Of a stretch of DNA of 15,605 bases, positions 5,363 through 12,604 are shown piece after piece. Both the position numbers and the translations under genes were made by a program. Positions within the stretch are counted from its first letter, which is position 1. Every line of letters starts with the position of its first letter. The stretch lies in the NCBI GenBank assembly GCA_035528375.1, contig DATKYS010000020.1, positions 1 to 15,605 of the forward strand. Reading direction: 5' to 3'. This stretch comes from a bacterium (GTDB taxonomy: Bacteria; RBG-13-66-14). The notes under the pieces were generated by a model. The model was not told where the DNA came from. It worked only from the letters and a program-made list of their open reading frames with translations, and made no database searches.

Positions 5363-6343
5363 TTAGAATTTATCCTTGATGACACCCCAAGTTGTTTCCT
5401 CGGTGCTGGAATCGTCGGAGTTTACATCAACGGTGAAGTACCAGGTGTCCTCGTCCCCATTGCCAAGCTCGTCCTCGGCGTACCAGTAAACGTAGATGTC
5501 GCCGAGGTCGAAGCTCTTTTCCGGCTTGTAGCTGATCACGTAGTCGCCGGTCAGGCTAATCTTCGAGATGGTGCACTCGTCGGTCACGATATTGCCGTCC
5601 ACCACGACGATGATGGTATCGAGCACGACCTCGTAATTCGCGTCACAGATCTCAAAGGTGACTGTCGTGTCGCCATGCACACCCGATTCGCCGGGGGCGG
5701 GATTCGGGTTGTCGGTGTAGGGCCCGGTGACATCGTCGTCCACAATGATCCGGAGCATGAAGTCGGACAGCTCGTCGAAGGTCCACTCGACACCGGAGGG
5801 GTCAGGGTAATTGTAGAAGTTCCCGTGGATCGGCTCGGTGGTGTCGGAGCAGAAGTAGGGATACTCGCTGTTATTCTTGATCGCCACGCCGTAGAACACG
5901 TCCCCCTCGTTCAGGATTACCCCGGCGGGGATGATGTTTATCTCGTTCCACCCTTCATTGACGCCGCCGGTGGTCATCACGCCGCCGAGCCTTTCGCCCG
6001 GGAATCCCTCCGCATCGTCGTAGATGGCGAAGAGGTAGGGTGTGAACATGATTCCACCATTGCCTTGGTAGACCATGCCCTGGGTCACGTGGCAGTCCAT
6101 CGGGGCGGTGAACTGAACGGCCCGGCTGTAGTTGTCCTGCCAGTAGTCATCCATCACTCCGTCGTCCCAGATGATGATTTGCCCGGCATTATGCTCGCCC
6201 TTCGGCGGAACGGGGATAGCACCGGGATCGTCGCCCATGACCGAGGTGCGCCCGTCCGAGTCCGCGGAGAGGGTGATTTCGTTGGCCCACCCGATGGAGG
6301 CGATGAGCACCAGCATCAGGGCCGTCATGATTACCTTTTTCAT
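5363..6343 (-). CDS. Secreted modular protein with C-terminal TTWGVIKDKF tail (array member 1)
   Basis: The 326-residue product is of unknown function. Residues 1-20 are a signal peptide ending SIGWA. After a short linker (PVPPKGE) comes a beta-rich domain from about 56 to 204. It shares with other array members a WDDG start, an F-x-AP-x-x-C strand (78-84, FTAPMDC), a YDDAEGFPGERLGG turn and an LRIIVDDD end. An Ig-like domain of the Big_5 sort follows (about 207-306, ending GNGDEDTWYFTV). The tail is TTWGVIKDKF. The protein is very acidic. The frame is open to 6661, but ATG 6343 gives the signal peptide and has AAAGGAG five bases away. The gene has its own terminator and probably its own promoter, so it seems monocistronic. 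Secretion is well supported; a binding or surface role is inference. Confidence 0.85.
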   Translation of the reverse strand: MKKVIMTALMLVLIASIGWANEITLSADSDGRTSVMGDDPGAIPVPPKGEHNAGQIIIWDDGVMDDYWQDNYSRAVQFTAPMDCHVTQGMVYQGNGGIMFTPYLFAIYDDAEGFPGERLGGVMTTGGVNEGWNEINIIPAGVILNEGDVFYGVAIKNNSEYPYFCSDTTEPIHGNFYNYPDPSGVEWTFDELSDFMLRIIVDDDVTGPYTDNPNPAPGESGVHGDTTVTFEICDANYEVVLDTIIVVVDGNIVTDECTISKISLTGDYVISYKPEKSFDLGDIYVYWYAEDELGNGDEDTWYFTVDVNSDDSSTEETTWGVIKDKF

Positions 6344-6374
6344 CTCGACTCCTTTTCGTTCGTTAAACCGGTTT

Positions 6375-6403
6375 TTGTTATTTTTTACCAAAGGGTGCGT
6401 CAA
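6375..6403 (-). promoter_or_regulatory. Weak candidate promoter for the gene starting at 6343
   Basis: On the minus strand, TTGACG (6398-6403) and TAACAA (6375-6380) are separated by 17 bases. The -35 match is good and the -10 match is poor. It lies in an A-rich leader 32 bases before the start codon. Confidence 0.3.
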
Positions 6404-6582
6404 CCGGTCGCAGTCCTTAATGGCAACAAGCGTGCCAGGATGGCGATGTGGACCGAAATCGCTCACCACGGGCCGTTTCAGACATGTCACCACGGTATGA
6501 ACCACGGTCGCCGACCGAATCTGCCCTATCATTTTGGAGGATCCGGTTGAAACTGAACCAGTGCGGTGACCCCACTTTCCGA
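6404..6582. other. Gene-free spacer with three ACCACGG words
   Basis: No gene, RNA or terminator was recognised in this stretch. It lies between the leader of the gene at 5363-6343 and a repeat block. The only structure noticed is ACCACGG at 6465, 6489 and 6501, spaced 24 and 12 bases. This could be an operator array or chance. Confidence 0.4.
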
Positions 6583-6790
6583 CCCGCCCGCGGGCGACCG
6601 TGGACTCATCGCCCCTACGGCGTGTATCCTGTCCGACGTTCGTAGGGGCGGGTGTCCACACCCGCCCGTTCCCACTCTCACCCTGGCCTTCTTATAAATG
6701 TAGGGTGGGGATTCTAATCCCCGCCGCTTTCGCCCCTCACCCTAGCCCGTAGGCGAGCCTCTCCCTAGAAGGGAGAGGGGATACGCGGCG
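6583..6790. repeat. Block of REP-like palindromic repeats
   Basis: The block contains an interrupted GGGCGACCGT hairpin (6592-6618), a perfect GGGCGGGTGT hairpin (6646-6667) preceded by CGTAG, a GGTGGGGA/TCCCCGCC unit (about 6704-6725), and a CCTCTCCCT/AGGGAGAGG unit with CCTCACCCTAGCCCGTAG (about 6735-6783). These are the same families as at 1-418. The block sits between two genes of the secreted-protein array. Confidence 0.8.
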
Positions 6791-6803
6791 GCCCTTCCCA
6801 TAG

Positions 6804-6832
6804 AAAAAGGCCCCCCGCGGGGGAGGGCCTTT
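6804..6832 (-). terminator. Rho-independent terminator of the DNRLRE-domain gene
   Basis: The minus strand shows AGGCCCTCCCCC, a short loop, a GGGGGCCT-type return arm and then five T (top-strand A at 6804-6808). It lies 22 bases past the stop codon at 6855. Confidence 0.85.
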
Positions 6833-6854
6833 CGCCTTTGTTTCGGCAGACGGG

Positions 6855-7874
6855 CTAGTTCCCGGCCTTGATGGCGCCCCAGGTGGTCGTGGTAACGGTA
6901 AGCTCGACATCGAAGGTCCAGACGAAATCGTCGCCTATATCGTTGCCTGCTTCGTCGGCCAGCGCGCCGTCCACGGTGCAGGTGATGGTTTCATCGTAGG
7001 GCAGGTCGTCGTCGGGGGTGAAGGTGCAGACGACATCGAGGGGGTCGGCGTCGTCAATGTCCAGATCGCCGGATATATCGCCGACGGGGGTGTACCAGAC
7101 GGACGCCGCGTGGGAGTCGGTGCTCACGGTCTTATCGCCGGACGCGAGGGTGGTGTCCTGGACGGTAAAGTCAATGGTGGTGGTGTCCACGCCCGAGTCG
7201 TCGTCCTTGCAGTGGAAGACGATGTCGGTGTCTATCGGCGTGTCGGTGTCGCCGTCGTCGGGAGCGAGGTCCTCCACGTAGGGCGGATCGGTGTCGGGCT
7301 CAACCGGGGTGTAGTCAATGTCCAGGTAGGGGTGGTTGCTGCCGGCCTCTTTCGAGTACCAGCGCTGGTAGTACGAGGAGCCGTAGCCCAAGCAGACGAC
7401 GCCGTAGTTGTCGTAGTCGCCGTCAACCCAGGCCTGGACCAGGTCGGTCACGTCGTAGGTTTTCCAGCCGCTGGGGACGCCGGCGTCGCCGCTGGCCCAG
7501 ACCGTGGCGTCGTCGAAGGCGAGCGGGGCCACGAGGGTCGCCTCATCCCAGGACTCGGTAACCCGGTAGATATCAGCATCTAGGGTGCCTGTCGGATAGC
7601 CATCGTAGCAGTAAACGTACATGTCGGCCGAGTTGATGGTGTAGCCATCGAGGCTGGAGAGGTCCCACTGGAGGACCGGCCGCTGATCGTAGTCGGGTTC
7701 CCTGTTAATGCGCAGCTCGGCGGAGCTGCCGTAGGGGCCGGAGCCGGTCCAGATCCAAGTGTCCTGGCTCGGCTCGATCTGGACGGTGTCCGCGGGACTG
7801 TAGGTCACACTGATGGCGGCGCCGAAGGACGACGCGGCAAAGAGACACAACAGAAGGATAGAAGCGTACTTCAT
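6855..7874 (-). CDS. Secreted DNRLRE (CBM96-like) plus Ig-like domain protein (array member 2)
   Basis: The 339-residue product has a signal peptide at 1-19. Residues about 25-190 match the DNRLRE-type carbohydrate-binding fold. They contain SQDTWIWTG (36-44), ELRINREPD (53-61), RPVLQWDLSSL (65-75), a YRVTESWDEATL strand (103-114), TYDVTDLVQAWVDG (139-152) and HPYLDIDYTP (181-190). An Ig-like Big_5-type domain follows (about 196-323). It is close in sequence to the one in the gene at 10934-12025, sharing DIVFHCKDDDSGVDTTTIDF. The end is TTTWGAIKAGN, the most divergent tail of the set, with Asn instead of the final Phe. The start has AAAGGAG upstream. The product is likely exported and may bind polysaccharide; that role is inferred from the domain only. 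Confidence 0.88.
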   Translation of the reverse strand: MKYASILLLCLFAASSFGAAISVTYSPADTVQIEPSQDTWIWTGSGPYGSSAELRINREPDYDQRPVLQWDLSSLDGYTINSADMYVYCYDGYPTGTLDADIYRVTESWDEATLVAPLAFDDATVWASGDAGVPSGWKTYDVTDLVQAWVDGDYDNYGVVCLGYGSSYYQRWYSKEAGSNHPYLDIDYTPVEPDTDPPYVEDLAPDDGDTDTPIDTDIVFHCKDDDSGVDTTTIDFTVQDTTLASGDKTVSTDSHAASVWYTPVGDISGDLDIDDADPLDVVCTFTPDDDLPYDETITCTVDGALADEAGNDIGDDFVWTFDVELTVTTTTWGAIKAGN

Positions 7875-7915
7875 CTTTTTCTCCTTTGGGTAATCGTAGT
7901 TTGAACCATGTTTAA

Positions 7916-7944
7916 ATGATACCGTTTTTACGGCGAGGTTGCAA
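7916..7944 (-). promoter_or_regulatory. Sigma-70-type promoter of the DNRLRE-domain gene
   Basis: On the minus strand, TTGCAA (7939-7944) and TATCAT (7916-7921) are separated by 17 bases. It lies 42 bases before the start codon. Both boxes match four or five of six consensus bases. Confidence 0.7.
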
Positions 7945-7986
7945 GTTTTTTCGTCCTAAACAAGGCGGGTTTCAGCCTGTGGTTGC

Positions 7987-8010
7987 AAAAGGCCCTCCCG
8001 AAGGAGGGCC
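7987..8010 (-). terminator. Rho-independent terminator of the secreted-protein gene at 8035
   Basis: A GGCCCTCC stem closes on a TTCG tetraloop and is followed by TTTT on the minus strand. It lies 25 bases past the stop. It has the same stem as the terminators at 9253, 10886 and 12318. Confidence 0.9.
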
Positions 8011-8034
8011 CTTTGCCGTTCTATCCGAGGTGTG

Positions 8035-9036
8035 TTAGAAATCGGACTTGATCATGCCCCAGGTGGTCGTAACGACGTTCGGGGGCTCTTCCTCGGTGTC
8101 GAAGGTCCATGTGTCCTCGCCCGCGTTGCCCAGGCCGTCCGCGGCTGACCAGTAGACCTCGACGGCCGTCTCGTAGCCGAAGTCGGTGTCGGGATCGTAG
8201 AAGATGCTGAAGGAGCCGTCACCGTTGTCGGTGATGTCGCAGTCCCCGGTCACGACCACCGAGTCAACCTCGACCGCGATGGTGTCGCCGTCCGTGCCGT
8301 AGTCGTCGTCCACGACGTCGAAGGCGATGTTGGCGTCAATCGGAACGTCCACGTCGCCGTCGGGCGGGTCGTAGTTTTCCCCGTAGGGGGGTTCCGCGTC
8401 GTCGTTGAAGTAGGCGCGCATGAGGTAGTTGTACCAGCCGGCGCTCCAGCCGGAGTAATCCTGGAAGTCGTGGTCGTACGGGCCGGCGAAGCCAACCTGC
8501 GGCCCGCCGGTGTCGGCGGTGTTGGTCCAATTGAAGAGGCCGTCGAAGTTGGCGTCATCGTCGTAGATCGGCGGGTCCATGGGCAGGTCTACCCAGACGA
8601 AACCGGAAGAGCCGGTGACTTCGAAATCGCTCTCCCAGAGCAATGAGCCAGTGTCCGGCCACCCGCCTGCATAGTCGTAAAACGCCGCGTGGCAGTAGTC
8701 GGTGCCGCCGGAATACATGTAGTAGTTGATCCGGTAGCCGGTGATGTAGCCCGCGGAGATACCCCAATCCGCGCCGTTGAACCACTTGCCCATCCGGATG
8801 CCGAGGGACGCCCAGGGGCAGTACGAACTCTCGCCGCCGTTGTCGTATAAGAACTCGGTCTCGGAGGGGGGTGGTGGGGGCAGGAACCGCACGGCGCTCG
8901 GCACGGGGGAGACAGGCCCGCTCTGAACGGCAAAGCCCGTGTCGGGGGCGTTGCTGATCGTCAGCTCGTACTCCTTGGCCATGCCCGCTCCCGCCAGAAC
9001 CAGGATAGCCAATGTAGAAACCAAAAGCTTTTTCAC
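8035..9036 (-). CDS. Secreted modular protein with C-terminal TTWGMIKSDF tail (array member 3)
   Basis: The 333-residue product starts at GTG 9036 (MKKLLVSTLAILVLAGAGMA, a signal peptide). This start has GAGGAG seven bases upstream and matches the next array gene. A longer frame reaches 9132 but lies over the promoter. A Pro-rich linker FLPPPPP (51-57) precedes LYDNG and a Trp/Tyr/Gly-rich beta domain (about 62-212). This domain shares its start and end (LMRAYFNDD) with its neighbours but has little similarity in between. An Ig-like domain follows (about 216-313) and then the tail. The last ~75 codons are closely matched by the remnant at 12365-12604. The function is unknown. Expression appears monocistronic. 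Confidence 0.85.
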   Translation of the reverse strand: MKKLLVSTLAILVLAGAGMAKEYELTISNAPDTGFAVQSGPVSPVPSAVRFLPPPPPSETEFLYDNGGESSYCPWASLGIRMGKWFNGADWGISAGYITGYRINYYMYSGGTDYCHAAFYDYAGGWPDTGSLLWESDFEVTGSSGFVWVDLPMDPPIYDDDANFDGLFNWTNTADTGGPQVGFAGPYDHDFQDYSGWSAGWYNYLMRAYFNDDAEPPYGENYDPPDGDVDVPIDANIAFDVVDDDYGTDGDTIAVEVDSVVVTGDCDITDNGDGSFSIFYDPDTDFGYETAVEVYWSAADGLGNAGEDTWTFDTEEEPPNVVTTTWGMIKSDF

Positions 9037-9087
9037 GTTTACTCCTCGTTTTTTTGGGGGGAAGGATTTCACAAATATGCACAAGAC

Positions 9088-9117
9088 ATTATATCGGAGT
9101 ATATCCCATAATGTAAA
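9088..9117 (-). promoter_or_regulatory. Sigma-70-type promoter of the gene at 8035-9036
   Basis: On the minus strand, TTTACA (9112-9117) and a perfect TATAAT (9088-9093) are separated by 18 bases. The predicted transcript start is about 45 bases before the GTG. The spacer contains GGGATATACTCC, an imperfect dyad. The leader between promoter and ribosome binding site has a C6A7 run on the minus strand. Confidence 0.75.
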
Positions 9118-9138
9118 GACATTTTTTTTCATTTATTG

Positions 9139-9176
9139 AGCCTTCATGCTGTTCTTTAATCGAAACCGAACACTCG
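9139..9176 (-). promoter_or_regulatory. Conserved upstream element, copy 1
   Basis: The words AGCCTTCATGCTG and ATCGAAACCGAACACTCG (top strand) begin about 22 bases upstream of the -35 box. They are identical at 10772-10809 and recognisable at 12125-12158, where the flanking sequence has diverged. This could be a regulator-binding site shared by three array genes. Confidence 0.45.
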
Positions 9177-9252
9177 CAATGTATTGGAGAATAAGCCATT
9201 AAAGTTGTTTGTTCACCGATTATCAGGTACATAGCGGGGCGGGACGGCGCCT

Positions 9253-9277
9253 AAAAAGGCCCTCCCGGAGGAGGGCC
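9253..9277 (-). terminator. Rho-independent terminator of the gene at 9301
   Basis: An eight-base-pair stem GGCCCTCC/GGAGGGCC with a TCCG loop is followed by five T on the minus strand. It lies 23 bases past the stop. Confidence 0.92.
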
Positions 9278-9300
9278 CTGTGCCGTTCTATCCGATGCGG

Positions 9301-10668
9301 CTAGAAATCGGCCTTGATCTGGCCCCAGGTGGCTTTCTCAACGCCTTCACCGGTGATGTTGAAACTCCAGACGATGTCGTCGTCGGTCGCGTTGCCCAGG
9401 TCGTCGGCCAGGCCGTCGGCCACGGTGCAGGTGATGGTGTCCGGGGGCAGCGGGTCTTCCGGGTCGAAGGTGCAGACCACATCGTTGATGTCGGAGTCGT
9501 CAATGTCCAGGCTGCCGGAGATGTCGCCGACGGGGGCGTACCCGGTGGATACGGCGCTGGAGCCGGTGCTCATGGCGCGGTTGCCGGGCGTAAGGCTGGT
9601 GTCCTCGACGGTGAAGTCAATGCTCCCGGTGTCCACGCCGATGCCGGGGTCGTAGACGTGGAAGACGATGTCGGTGTCCGGGTCCACGCCGGTGGCGCCG
9701 TCGGCCGGGTCACGCCCGCCCACGGTCGGGGCGGTGGCGTCCACGCCGAAGCTCCAGGTCTCGTCCGAGCCCATCTCGTTGCCCAAGAGGTCGGCCAAGC
9801 TGCCGTACACGGTCACGTCGTAGGTGCCGTCCTCGAAGGGGTCGTCCGGGTTGAAGGTGCAGGTGTAGTCCGAGGGGTCACCGGTGATGTCCAGGCTGCC
9901 CGGCACGTCGGCCTTCGCGCCGTCGTCCACGGCTCCGTCAATGGTCGTATCATCCACGCCCTTGTCGTCGTCCTTGGCGTGGAACACGAACTGGGTGTTG
10001 TCGGCGGTCCACCCGCCGTCCTCCGGGTCCTGGCCGTCCACGTAGGGGCCGGTAAAGTCATCGTCAATGACGACGCGGCACATGTGGGTGTAGTACGCGC
10101 TGTAATCGTACCAGTAACCCAGCCACAGCCAGCAGCTACCGGCATGCTTGGCATCATCCATCAGCACGCCGCCAGAGTCGTAAACATAGCTAAAACCGGG
10201 GTGGAAGACCTGGCCGCTGGTGAGCGTGGCCCCCGCTCCGGAAACGTCCACATCGAACCAGTTAAAGGTTGTGGAGCCGCTGTTGCCGGTGACGGTGAAG
10301 AGGGTGCTGCCGGTGGGGGTGCCGCCGCTGTCGTCGTAGAGCAGGCAGTCAACGTTAATGCTGCCGCCGTTGTACCAGTAGAAGCGGTAAGTCACCAGAT
10401 GGCAGGCGGACGGGGCGGTGAAGGTCGTGGCATAGGGACTGAGGCCGCCCCCAAAATAGCTGTTGCCGGAACCGTCATCCCAGTAAAGCTCAGTCTCACC
10501 GGGGGGGGGCGGCATGTAGCGCAGGCCGCCGGAGGTGGGGGCGACGGGCACGTACTGAATGACAGGGCCCGTGTCGGGGACGCTGCCGACCTCCAGCGTG
10601 TACTCCTTGGCCATGCCCGCTCCCGCCAGAACCAGGATAGCCAATGTAGAAACCAAAAGCTTTTTCAC
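9301..10668 (-). CDS. Secreted modular protein with two Ig-like domains and ATWGQIKADF tail (array member 4)
   Basis: At 455 residues this is the longest array member. It starts at GTG 10668 behind AAGGAG, with the same signal peptide (1-20) as the gene at 8035. A linker YMPPPPGETE (51-60) is encoded through a run of nine C. It leads into a beta domain (about 61-204) with YWDDG, TTFTAPSAC, LLYDDSGGTPTG and CRVVIDDD, as in the genes at 5363 and 10934. Two Ig-like Big_5-type domains follow. The first spans about 208-307 (ends GNEMGSDETWSF); the second spans about 313-436 (starts APTVGGRDPADGATGV, ends IVWSF). The second resembles those of the genes at 6855 and 10934. The tail is ATWGQIKADF. The gene is flanked exactly by the two ~351-bp direct repeats. 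The function is unknown; export is well supported. Confidence 0.87.
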   Translation of the reverse strand: MKKLLVSTLAILVLAGAGMAKEYTLEVGSVPDTGPVIQYVPVAPTSGGLRYMPPPPGETELYWDDGSGNSYFGGGLSPYATTFTAPSACHLVTYRFYWYNGGSINVDCLLYDDSGGTPTGSTLFTVTGNSGSTTFNWFDVDVSGAGATLTSGQVFHPGFSYVYDSGGVLMDDAKHAGSCWLWLGYWYDYSAYYTHMCRVVIDDDFTGPYVDGQDPEDGGWTADNTQFVFHAKDDDKGVDDTTIDGAVDDGAKADVPGSLDITGDPSDYTCTFNPDDPFEDGTYDVTVYGSLADLLGNEMGSDETWSFGVDATAPTVGGRDPADGATGVDPDTDIVFHVYDPGIGVDTGSIDFTVEDTSLTPGNRAMSTGSSAVSTGYAPVGDISGSLDIDDSDINDVVCTFDPEDPLPPDTITCTVADGLADDLGNATDDDIVWSFNITGEGVEKATWGQIKADF

Positions 10669-10720
10669 GTTTACTCCTTGGTTTTTTTGGGGGGAAGGGT
10701 TTCATAAATATGCGCAAGAC

Positions 10721-10750
10721 ATTATATCGAAGTATATCCCATAATGTAAA
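10721..10750 (-). promoter_or_regulatory. Sigma-70-type promoter of the gene at 9301-10668
   Basis: On the minus strand, TTTACA (10745-10750) and TATAAT (10721-10726) are separated by 18 bases. It is the same promoter as at 9088-9117 with one change in the spacer. Confidence 0.75.
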
Positions 10751-10771
10751 GACATTTTTTTTCATTTATTG

Positions 10772-10809
10772 AGCCTTCATGCTGTTCTTTAATCGAAACC
10801 GAACACTCG
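10772..10809 (-). promoter_or_regulatory. Conserved upstream element, copy 2
   Basis: It is identical to 9139-9176 and lies at the same distance from its promoter. It is part of the long direct repeat, so by itself it gives no independent sign of selection. Confidence 0.45.
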
Positions 10810-10885
10810 CAATGTATTGGAGAATAAGCCATTAAGGTTGTTTGTTCACCGATTATCAGGTACATAGCGGGGCGGGACGGCGCCT

Positions 10886-10910
10886 AAAAAGGCCCTCCCG
10901 GAGGAGGGCC
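10886..10910 (-). terminator. Rho-independent terminator of the gene at 10934
   Basis: It has the same GGCCCTCC/GGAGGGCC stem and five-T tail as at 9253-9277. It lies 23 bases past the stop. Confidence 0.92.
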
Positions 10911-10933
10911 CTGTGCCGTTCTATCCGATGCGG

Positions 10934-12025
10934 CTAGAAATCGGCCTTGATCACGCCCCAGGTGGTCGTAACGACGTTCGGGGCTTCCTCGGTGTCGAAG
11001 CTCCAGACGAAATCATCGCCCATCTCGTTAGCCTCGAGGTCGGCCAGTGCGCCGTCCACGGTGCAGGTGATGGTGTCCTCGTAGGGCAGGTCCGCGTCGG
11101 GGGTGAAGGTGCAGACGACATCGAGGAGGTCGGCGTCGTCAACGTCCAGGTCGCCGGCAATCTCACCGGCCGGGGAAGCGCCGAGCCGCGCGGCGGCGCC
11201 GGTGCTCACCACGAGAGATGCGCCCAACGTCGTGTCCTCGGCGGTGAAGTCTATGGTGGTGGTGTCCACGCCCGAGTCGTCGTCCTTGCAGTGGAAAACG
11301 ATGTCGGAGTCTATCGGCACGTCGGACTCACCGTCGGTGGGTTCCATATCGGCCACGAAGGGTGGGGTGGTGTCGGGCTCGGACAAGTCGTCGTCAACGA
11401 AGACGCGGATCAGCATGGCGCCGAAGGTGTCATAGTCGGACCAGCTGCCTCCGTCGAAATACCACCACGCCGAGTCGGCGGGTCCCGGGCCCTGGTTGTC
11501 CTGGGGGGCGTTGTCCTGGCCCTCGATGGAGTCGTCGCTCATGGCGAAGAACACGTCGCCCGTGCTGAGCAACGGCCTCGTCGCCAGATCGAACCGGACC
11601 CAGGTATCGCCTGAGTGAGAGCCCTCATAGAAGGTCTCGTACCCGCCCAGAAGACTGTTGTTGCGGTCCGGCTTGCCGGGCACGCCGACGTCCTCGCCCA
11701 GGATGTCGATGAAGAAGTTGCGGGCCGAGGAGTTGAAGCAGCACAGCTTGACGGCGACCACGAGGCAGTCGTAGGGCGCGATGAACTTCGAGGCGAAGCC
11801 GGCTATCCCTCCGCTCCAGTGGTAGTAGGCGCTGCCGTTGTCGTTGTAGAGCTCCTCCTCGGTGAGCGGCATGGGGGAGAGCGTGACGTAGTGCTCACCC
11901 GAAACCGGCGGTGTACCGCCAGTCAACGCTCCGCCGGTGTCGACCGAGACGGCCAGCTCGTGCACCTCGGCCGGGCTCGCACCGGCGAGGACCAGGAGCG
12001 CCAATGTAGCCACTAGCTTTTTCAC
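10934..12025 (-). CDS. Secreted modular protein with TTWGVIKADF tail (array member 5)
   Basis: The 363-residue product starts at GTG 12025, behind AAGGAG, with a signal peptide MKKLVATLALLVLAGASPA. The frame is open to 12109 but the extra residues are not signal-like. The beta domain (about 58-212) has LYNDNG, FIAPYDC (81-87), an ILGEDVGVPGKPD turn (108-120) and LIRVFVDDD (205-213). The layout matches the genes at 5363 and 9301. The Ig-like domain (about 221-345) is nearly that of the gene at 6855. The final EEAPNVV plus tail matches the remnant at 12365. The protein is thus a mosaic of segments found in different neighbours. No enzyme motif was seen. Confidence 0.86.
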   Translation of the reverse strand: MKKLVATLALLVLAGASPAEVHELAVSVDTGGALTGGTPPVSGEHYVTLSPMPLTEEELYNDNGSAYYHWSGGIAGFASKFIAPYDCLVVAVKLCCFNSSARNFFIDILGEDVGVPGKPDRNNSLLGGYETFYEGSHSGDTWVRFDLATRPLLSTGDVFFAMSDDSIEGQDNAPQDNQGPGPADSAWWYFDGGSWSDYDTFGAMLIRVFVDDDLSEPDTTPPFVADMEPTDGESDVPIDSDIVFHCKDDDSGVDTTTIDFTAEDTTLGASLVVSTGAAARLGASPAGEIAGDLDVDDADLLDVVCTFTPDADLPYEDTITCTVDGALADLEANEMGDDFVWSFDTEEAPNVVTTTWGVIKADF

Positions 12026-12074
12026 GATTGACTCCTTGTTTTCTTGCAGGGGGTTTTGGAGAGGGGTTCGAGGC

Positions 12075-12103
12075 ATCCTAGAGCAGAATTTCCAAAGATA
12101 CAA
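12075..12103 (-). promoter_or_regulatory. Weak candidate promoter of the gene at 10934-12025
   Basis: On the minus strand, TTGTAT (12098-12103) and TAGGAT (12075-12080) are separated by 17 bases. Each matches four of six consensus bases. The leader here differs from those of the two preceding genes. Confidence 0.35.
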
Positions 12104-12124
12104 GGGCATTTTGTCTATTTTTTA

Positions 12125-12158
12125 AGCCTTCATACTGTATATCGAAACCGGACACTCG
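12125..12158 (-). promoter_or_regulatory. Conserved upstream element, diverged copy 3
   Basis: AGCCTTCATACTG and ATCGAAACCGGACACTCG (top strand) match the elements at 9139 and 10772 with two substitutions and a shorter gap between the words. The adjoining promoter region is not conserved, so the words may be under selection. Confidence 0.45.
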
Positions 12159-12167
12159 TTGCGATGA

Positions 12168-12300
12168 CGTAGGGGCTGGTGTCCACACCCGCCCGTCTCA
12201 ACCCCTCTCCCCCACACTCCCCCCAGAGGGGGGAGGGAGTATATGGCAGCCCTCACCCTTAATCCCGTCGGCGCGCCGCTCCCACGGGGAGAGGGAAAAT
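12168..12300. repeat. Block of REP-like palindromic repeats
   Basis: It contains a GGGCTGGTGT/ACACCCGCCC hairpin with one G-T mismatch (12173-12194), a CCTCTCCCCCACACTCCCC/GGGGGGAG unit (about 12200-12240), and a unit with CCCGTCGGCGCGCCGCTCCC and GGGGAGAGGG (about 12249-12297). The last unit recurs at about 15308-15360. The block occupies the gap between the last complete array gene and the truncated remnant. Confidence 0.8.
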
Positions 12301-12317
12301 CGGCCGCACCGGTCCGC

Positions 12318-12342
12318 AAAAAGGCCCTCCCGGAGGAGGACC
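12318..12342 (-). terminator. Terminator downstream of the truncated array remnant
   Basis: It has the same stem as the other array terminators, except that one arm reads GGTCCTCC on the minus strand. This makes a U-G pair in the RNA. Five T follow. It is still likely functional although the gene is broken. Confidence 0.75.
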
Positions 12343-12364
12343 CTGTGCCGTTCTCGAAGATGGG

Positions 12365-12604
12365 CTAGAACTCGGTCTTGATCACGCCCCAGGTGGTCGT
12401 AACGACGTTCGGGGCTTCCTCGGTGTCAAAGGTCCATGTGTCCTCGCCCGCGTTGCCCAGGCCGTCCGCAGCGGACCAGTAGACCTCGACGGTCGTCTCA
12501 TAGTCGAAATCGTCGGGCAGATCATAGAGCACGTTGAATGAACCGTCACCGTTGTCGGTGATGTCGCAGTCCACGGTCACGTCCGTCCCCTCGATAAAGG
12601 GCTG
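12365..12604 (-). pseudogene. 5'-truncated remnant of a TTWGxIK-tailed secreted protein gene
   Basis: The frame runs from an in-frame TAA at 12605-12607 to the stop at 12365 and encodes only the end of an Ig-like domain plus EEAPNVV and the tail TTWGVIKTEF. From the motif CDITDNGDGSF onward, about 70 codons match the end of the gene at 8035-9036 at roughly nine bases in ten. The signal peptide and middle domain are absent. The only possible starts are internal GTG codons without a ribosome binding site. The break lies about 30 bases short of the hslV promoter. It reads as the eroded end of the array. Confidence 0.8.

Follow-up and report, generated by a model that had tools for sequence, protein, structure and literature searches.

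Why should exported proteins with different bodies end in nearly the same ten residues? The question is raised by contig DATKYS010000020.1 (15,605 nucleotides, analysed as a whole and called the window here) from a genome of Candidatus Coatesbacteria, in which five complete signal-peptide proteins and one 5′-truncated remnant carry a C-terminal tail of the form [TA]TWGxIKxxF. The original prediction had taken this tail for a sorting or anchoring signal. It does behave as a terminal signal in its placement, its conservation and its association with signal peptides and diverse bodies, and sorting or anchoring would be its putative role. We consider it likely that the tail is a functional terminal docking or sorting peptide. 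With somewhat less confidence, we propose from comparison of sequences that the last 10–14 residues (V-E-E-x-[ST]-W-G-x-I-K-A-x-[FY], with most relatives ending in ...[LM][FY]R) would be read as such a peptide by an envelope receptor co-inherited with the type IX secretion system (T9SS). That the T9SS itself reads the tail we regard as doubtful.

All six predicted tails are present in the window, on the minus strand, with tryptophan codons beginning at 5389, 6881, 8061, 9327, 10960 and 12391. The DNA pattern TGGGGNNNNATHAARN{3,18}TRR, which describes the WGxIK codons followed by a stop-like codon within 3–18 bases, gives seven matches in the window (six places, one of them doubly counted), compared with a mean of 0.02 across 200 dinucleotide shuffles. 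For the source genome as a whole (2.63 Mb, family f1 of the Coatesbacteria), proteome-wide figures rest on pattern searches and on open reading frames (ORFs) read from sequence stretches. Here WGxIK followed by a stop occurs 54 times, compared with three matches for the reversed pattern, and 55 distinct tail ORFs yield the consensus V-E-E-[TS]-[ST]-W-G-x-I-K-A-x-[FY]-stop. Positions outside the search pattern are conserved as well, with V at −5 in 50/55, S/T at −1 in all 55, A at +5 in 45/55 and F/Y at +7 in 43/55, and the stop most often follows directly after this last residue. The motif is terminal in 36 of the ORFs read and internal in none. Together, the reversed-pattern and shuffle controls rule out chance. 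Since synonymous codons vary at the conserved positions, selection acts on the peptide and not on the DNA, and a DNA-level repeat or recombination site is ruled out by the same variation. As predicted, there is neither a hydrophobic helix nor an arginine cluster: the stop lies 3–6 residues past WGxIK, with no hydrophobic stretch.

The proteins that carry the tail are mostly predicted to be exported. A home-made heuristic, which gives an indication rather than a measurement, finds a Sec signal peptide in 42 of 50 tail ORFs and in 17 of 87 neighbouring ORFs. This is the enrichment that was to be looked for, and, as far as tested, the motif is not found as often in cytoplasmic proteins. Among 51 tail proteins of the source genome, Pfam recognizes Big_5 in 14 and CBM96 in eight, most of the others having no Pfam match, while NCBIfam adds DNRLRE and Omp28-type bodies. 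When tail and signal peptide are removed, BLAST with single linkage sorts the bodies into 11 clusters, one of which, a mosaic cluster, holds 43/55. Different bodies thus share the tail at the extreme C-terminus, mostly with a Sec signal peptide. Elsewhere in this genome, six related tail ORFs stand side by side at one locus (L047, on contig C100), along with two broken, tail-less relatives (84 and 149 codons). At another (L025:964–2101), two adjacent tail proteins have lipoprotein-like starts, with VSC and LSC ahead of the cysteine that would carry the lipid, and the tail can therefore coexist with lipid anchoring.

In Ignavibacteria and their relatives, the tail is carried by one small protein per genome, ∼140 aa long, with a fibronectin-III-like (FN3) domain, and this protein permits a comparison of the tail with the domain beside it. 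We removed the tail and searched the remaining body profile (A4) against 61 genomes of the class. The profile matched in 61/61 genomes, and all 50 FN3 proteins read end in [ST]WG[SM][IL]K[AES][MLI]F[RK], TWGMIKEMFR and TWGSLKAMFR being among the variants. In this tail-blind sample of 50, the major-residue frequency averages 0.90 across the ten final columns and 0.50 across the body, and 7/10 tail columns reach a frequency of at least 0.9, compared with 8/104 in the body. Another set (A2), unlike the tail-blind one, was selected by the tail, so that tail invariance there is partly by construction. Judged by column conservation, selection has been stronger on the tail peptide than on the adjoining domain. 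The idea that the tail is just the last strand of an immunoglobulin (Ig) domain, conserved no more than the rest, therefore fails, as it does on Big_5 being found in only 14/51 carriers. Neither Pfam nor NCBIfam has a model for the FN3 family, and a Foldseek search of the PDB with it returned generic FN3-like matches only. AlphaFold models the family well (mean predicted local distance difference test score, pLDDT, of 87), with a sandwich and a terminal helix over the tail at pLDDT 67–69, so that the tail forms a terminal appendix, of lower confidence, beyond the FN3 sandwich; for one window protein the mean pLDDT was 42 and no usable model resulted. In Ignavibacteria-type loci (L093–L204, e.g. 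L094:476–871), the FN3 carrier often adjoins Maf and a flippase-like gene. We rejected the idea of a partner gene in the neighbourhood, as nothing beyond Maf, flippase-like, SpoIID and MATE genes recurs beside the carrier, and these do not do so across phyla.

How widely the tail is distributed depends on the lineage. Searching the same phylum, as had been suggested, we found 43–65 matches per genome in seven family f1 genomes out of 14 Coatesbacteria genomes, compared with 0–3 in the control. Family f5 has a few matches that read as real tails (e.g. WGLIKALYR-stop), while counts in f2–f4 are near background. A broader scan of the genome_contigs set with [ST]WGxIKAx[FY]R-stop returned at least 118 stretches, 80 of which were listed with titles, a fair number of them labelled merely ‘bacterium’; nearly all of the matches are C-termini of signal-peptide proteins. 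As [ST]WGxIKA[LM][FY]R-stop, the tail occurs across phyla of the Fibrobacteres–Chlorobi–Bacteroidetes (FCB) type. The groups among the matches listed are Eisenbacteria, Krumholzibacteria, Effluviviaceae, Zixibacteria, KSB1, Ignavibacteria and relatives, Chlorobi-type, Calditrichota, Delongbacteria, Neomarinimicrobiota, Coatesbacteria, Bacteroidetes-labelled metagenome-assembled genomes (MAGs) and one Gemmatimonadota-labelled MAG. Most Eisenbacteria/Krumholzibacteria-type genomes have roughly 15–75 matches, compared with 0–2 in the control, and in Ignavibacteria-type genomes the loose pattern gives background-like counts. The exact pattern, applied to 296 genomes of the Ignavibacteria phylum that were not chosen by the tail, is found in 93, once per genome except for one genome with two, and its reversed control is found in none. 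A second pass through 56 genomes missed by the strict pattern showed eight that encode the small protein with a variant form of the tail (e.g. WGSLKAMFQ, WGMLKEMFR and WGSIKAMFLD), and in the sampled genomes without SprA the small FN3 protein had no match. Two IMG/VR contigs also encode perfect tails (TWGGIKAFYR at L331 3152–3184 and TWGSIKAFYR at L332 214–246); these probably represent host DNA that was binned as viral, or else cargo genes.

The tail keeps company with the T9SS. SprA is matched in all 14 Coatesbacteria genomes (12 above the curated cut-off), each of which encodes 24–70 type A sorting domains, with 52 in the source genome; PorU-like matches (NF033707, the T9SS PorU-type peptidase) also occur, passing the cut-off in only two. 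The source genome and the 13 others are thus an instance of a T9SS outside Bacteroidota proper. SprA is likewise found in 49 of 50 tail genomes, 45 of these above the curated cut-off, and among the 296 genomes it is present in 93/93 carriers and in 136/203 of the others (Fisher p 2e-13, a descriptive value that ignores phylogeny). A T9SS substrate needs a Sec signal peptide, which the heuristic reports in 42/50 tail ORFs, and a host SprA, which is present in the source genome, in its phylum and in both of these samples. The tail itself is not a type A C-terminal domain (CTD) of the T9SS as modelled by TIGR04183/PF18962: 0/51 tail proteins of the source genome match TIGR04183 (NCBIfam, E ≤ 1e-3), whereas 52 matches lie elsewhere in the same genome, and in place of a beta-fold domain of 43–100 residues with motifs B, D and E we see a conserved unit of ∼10–14 residues. 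One genome (G021) has, among the proteins read, 18 others with the FN3 domain of the tail protein, and in 17 of them a Q-N-[YF]-P-N-P-F T9SS-type domain comes next (our script took only the Y form, and the rest were counted by eye). Because the same FN3 domain elsewhere runs into a T9SS-type domain, the tail stands in the slot of the T9SS CTD. The tail replaces this CTD, the two not being found together in the proteins scanned, and in the samples tested its carriers encode SprA. The expected co-occurrence with one particular protease, ligase or secretion gene therefore holds in part: the T9SS/SprA accompanies the tail in every one of the 93 carriers but does not suffice for it, and no protease or ligase is tied to it. 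No sortase-type enzyme is tied to it either, although no search aimed at sortase, exosortase or rhombosortase was made.

One explanation of this association is that the tail is a minimal T9SS secretion signal, an alternative to the type A, B and C domains, which a SprA/PorV-type translocon would read to carry the proteins across the outer membrane. Consistent with this, the tail follows the same FN3 domain in the position of the CTD, was not found on proteins with a CTD and is accompanied by SprA in 93/93 carriers and 49/50 tail genomes, and the Flavobacterium johnsoniae translocon, in which the C-terminal helix of SkpA contacts the base of PorV, offers a precedent (PMC10994853). However, known T9SS CTDs are beta-fold domains of at least 43 residues and none is a 10-residue peptide (PMC11969387, PMC10202324, PMC12618676), many genomes have SprA but no tail, and the universal single FN3 carrier is not substrate-like. 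We therefore think a minimal secretion signal possible, but rather unlikely.

In the docking or sorting role that we favour, the tail would, after export by Sec, hang from a short linker, often V-E-E, where one conserved periplasmic or outer-membrane receptor would bind it. This receptor, co-inherited with the T9SS, may be a shuttle, a translocon or an outer-membrane factor, and would hold the protein at, or route it to, its working site in the envelope. In Ignavibacteria and relatives, the single-gene FN3-domain protein would be its one main ligand; in Coatesbacteria f1 and in Eisenbacteria/Krumholzibacteria-type genomes, the same tag would have spread to tens of surface-type proteins.

Several points weigh against this proposal. 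The receptor is putative and deduced from sequence patterns, and no machine can be named from the genes found repeatedly beside the FN3 carrier (Maf, flippase-like, SpoIID and MATE). Among the 296 genomes, 136 with SprA lack the exact motif, some of them having variant tails, and Coatesbacteria f2–f4 possess SprA and T9SS domains yet show background-like tail counts. The single-copy, universal carrier of Ignavibacteria resembles a component that uses the motif for binding more than it does the varying substrates of a sorting system. With 43/55 bodies in one mosaic BLAST cluster, descent and shared modules contribute to the pattern in the source genome. A lipobox-like start, seen in two tail proteins of that genome, is unusual for T9SS cargo. 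Finally, the helix that AlphaFold draws for the tail of the FN3 family is of low confidence, while hydrophobic moments do not favour a helix in Coatesbacteria tails.

The shape of the tail bears on two further alternatives. Its helical hydrophobic moment has a z of −0.3 in Coatesbacteria tails and +0.8 in the genome_contigs set, and as a general rule an amphipathic helix finds no support in Coatesbacteria tails. For a strand the moment is modestly elevated, with a mean z of about +1, and the conserved G, I, A and F/Y occupy alternating positions. Such a G-x-I-x-A-x-F/Y peptide could act as a beta-strand that extends a barrel or sandwich at its edge, for example as an Omp85/BAM-type signal or by donor-strand pairing. 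The carriers, however, show no signs of a barrel, AlphaFold suggests a helix in the FN3 family, and the spacing of the published beta-signal differs from that of the tail; we consider a beta-strand role improbable. The AlphaFold helix of the FN3 family, along with the conserved W, I, F/Y and K/R, is what might be expected of an in-plane membrane anchor like the C-terminal amphipathic helix of PBP5, which would fix the proteins to the membrane without any receptor. A plain membrane anchor is nonetheless disfavoured, since the net charge of the tails ranges from −3 to +4 while G and K are near-invariant; near-invariance of W, G, I and K suggests a specific partner, the helix moment is not raised in Coatesbacteria, and the two lipoprotein-like tail proteins would not need an anchor. 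We regard this alternative as very improbable.

The genes of the window show how far descent accounts for the similarity. Its five complete ORFs are preceded by AGGAG-like sequences and, as predicted, begin with Sec-type signal peptides. Exported protein 1 (326 aa; 5363..6343, ATG start at 6343) has the signal peptide MKKVIMTALMLVLIASIGWA, no significant Pfam domain and the tail TTWGVIKDKF (5366–5395). Exported protein 2 (339 aa; 6855..7874, ATG 7874) combines the signal peptide MKYASILLLCLFAASSFGA with CBM96/DNRLRE and Big_5 and ends in TTWGAIKAGN (6858–6887). The signal peptide VKKLLVSTLAILVLAGAGMA is common to exported protein 3 (333 aa; 8035..9036, GTG 9036), with the tail TTWGMIKSDF (8038–8067), and exported protein 4 (455 aa; 9301..10668, GTG 10668), with two Big_5 stretches and the tail ATWGQIKADF (9304–9333). 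Exported protein 5 (363 aa; 10934..12025, GTG 12025) has the signal peptide VKKLVATLALLVLAGASPA, a Big_5 domain and the tail TTWGVIKADF (10937–10966); its Big_5 match stops at residue 355 of 373, ahead of the tail. The remaining ORF (79 codons; 12365..12604) resembles the C-terminal part of protein 3 and ends in TTWGVIKTEF (12368–12397). As it is a stop-to-stop fragment without a signal peptide, we interpret it as a 5′-truncated remnant. Proteins 3 and 4 have near-identical leaders as well as signal peptides (8035–9132 and 9301–10765), the upstream ORF starting with MKKNVFTLWDILRYNVL..., which points to tandem duplication or gene conversion in the recent past.

These genes thus form a tandem array with duplicated leaders. 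Their bodies are 25–46% identical to protein 5, and three of the five have Big_5 at the Pfam cut-off. The bodies had been described as different; this stands genome-wide, where they have no common domain, but the five of the window are not all unrelated. Since the array, the related bodies and the shared leaders occur together, descent explains part of the local similarity, and inside the window shared ancestry is a contributor. Shared ancestry alone, which had also been raised as a sufficient cause, falls short, the tail being more conserved than the adjoining domain. In spite of this array, it is hardly probable that the tail is simply the final piece of an Ig/FN3 domain, alike solely through domain descent: Pfam shows no Ig domain in most tail proteins, the Big_5 match of protein 5 ends before the tail, the tail is far more conserved than the body in the tail-blind sample, and AlphaFold sets it outside the FN3 sandwich.

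If the docking or sorting peptide is real, it would represent a targeting or docking route new to the envelope of largely uncultured bacteria and would give many ‘hypothetical’ exported proteins a testable role. The single-copy FN3 carrier of cultivable Ignavibacteria makes the question directly testable. The tail looks undescribed: no library model or open-access paper within our scope describes it. Sorting-type NCBIfam models give no match to the tail even at E 10, though HMMER filters may miss short models, and searches of the open-access literature returned nothing for the exact motif strings or for combinations of T9SS and phylum.

Among the closest known systems is the T9SS type A CTD (TIGR04183/PF18962, including the 43–55-residue short form of Prevotella intermedia), which like the tail is C-terminal, occurs on diverse Sec-exported bodies in SprA bacteria and follows the same FN3 domain; it differs in being a beta-fold with motifs B, D and E, whereas the tail, of ∼10 residues, has none of these motifs and finds no match among CTD models. 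A parallel is provided by the type B (TIGR04131) and type C CTDs, which are alternative C-terminal signals for one machine, but they span about 100–235 residues and have no sequence resemblance to the tail. LPXTG, PEP-CTERM, GlyGly-CTERM and MYXO-CTERM signals share with it a short conserved C-terminal motif on many mosaic exported proteins, although in the tail neither a transmembrane helix nor a basic cluster follows the motif, and NCBIfam gives no match to it. The anchor of PBP5 is also a C-terminal element on a Sec-exported soluble domain, yet the tail is sequence-specific and not merely amphipathic, with a variable charge. In size and conservation, the tail resembles FtsZ-CTP, SSB-Ct and the SkpA helix on PorV, which are terminal elements of about ten residues (SkpA being longer) that contact a partner and are more strictly conserved than the rest of the protein; unlike FtsZ-CTP and SSB-Ct, the tail is found on exported proteins, the same peptide occurs on many bodies, and its partner is putative. 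A 10-residue tail is of neither established sort: T9SS signals, as far as they have been described, are entire beta domains, and those of the sortase type include a membrane helix. The tail belongs to the known kind of C-terminal sorting or docking signals and could prove to be a separate class. More tentatively, this may be a new class of ∼10-residue C-terminal envelope-targeting peptide that is ancestral to the FCB group, used in many lineages by a single core FN3 protein and spread in others to tens of proteins, with a receptor of its own that serves either T9SS entry or separate anchoring.

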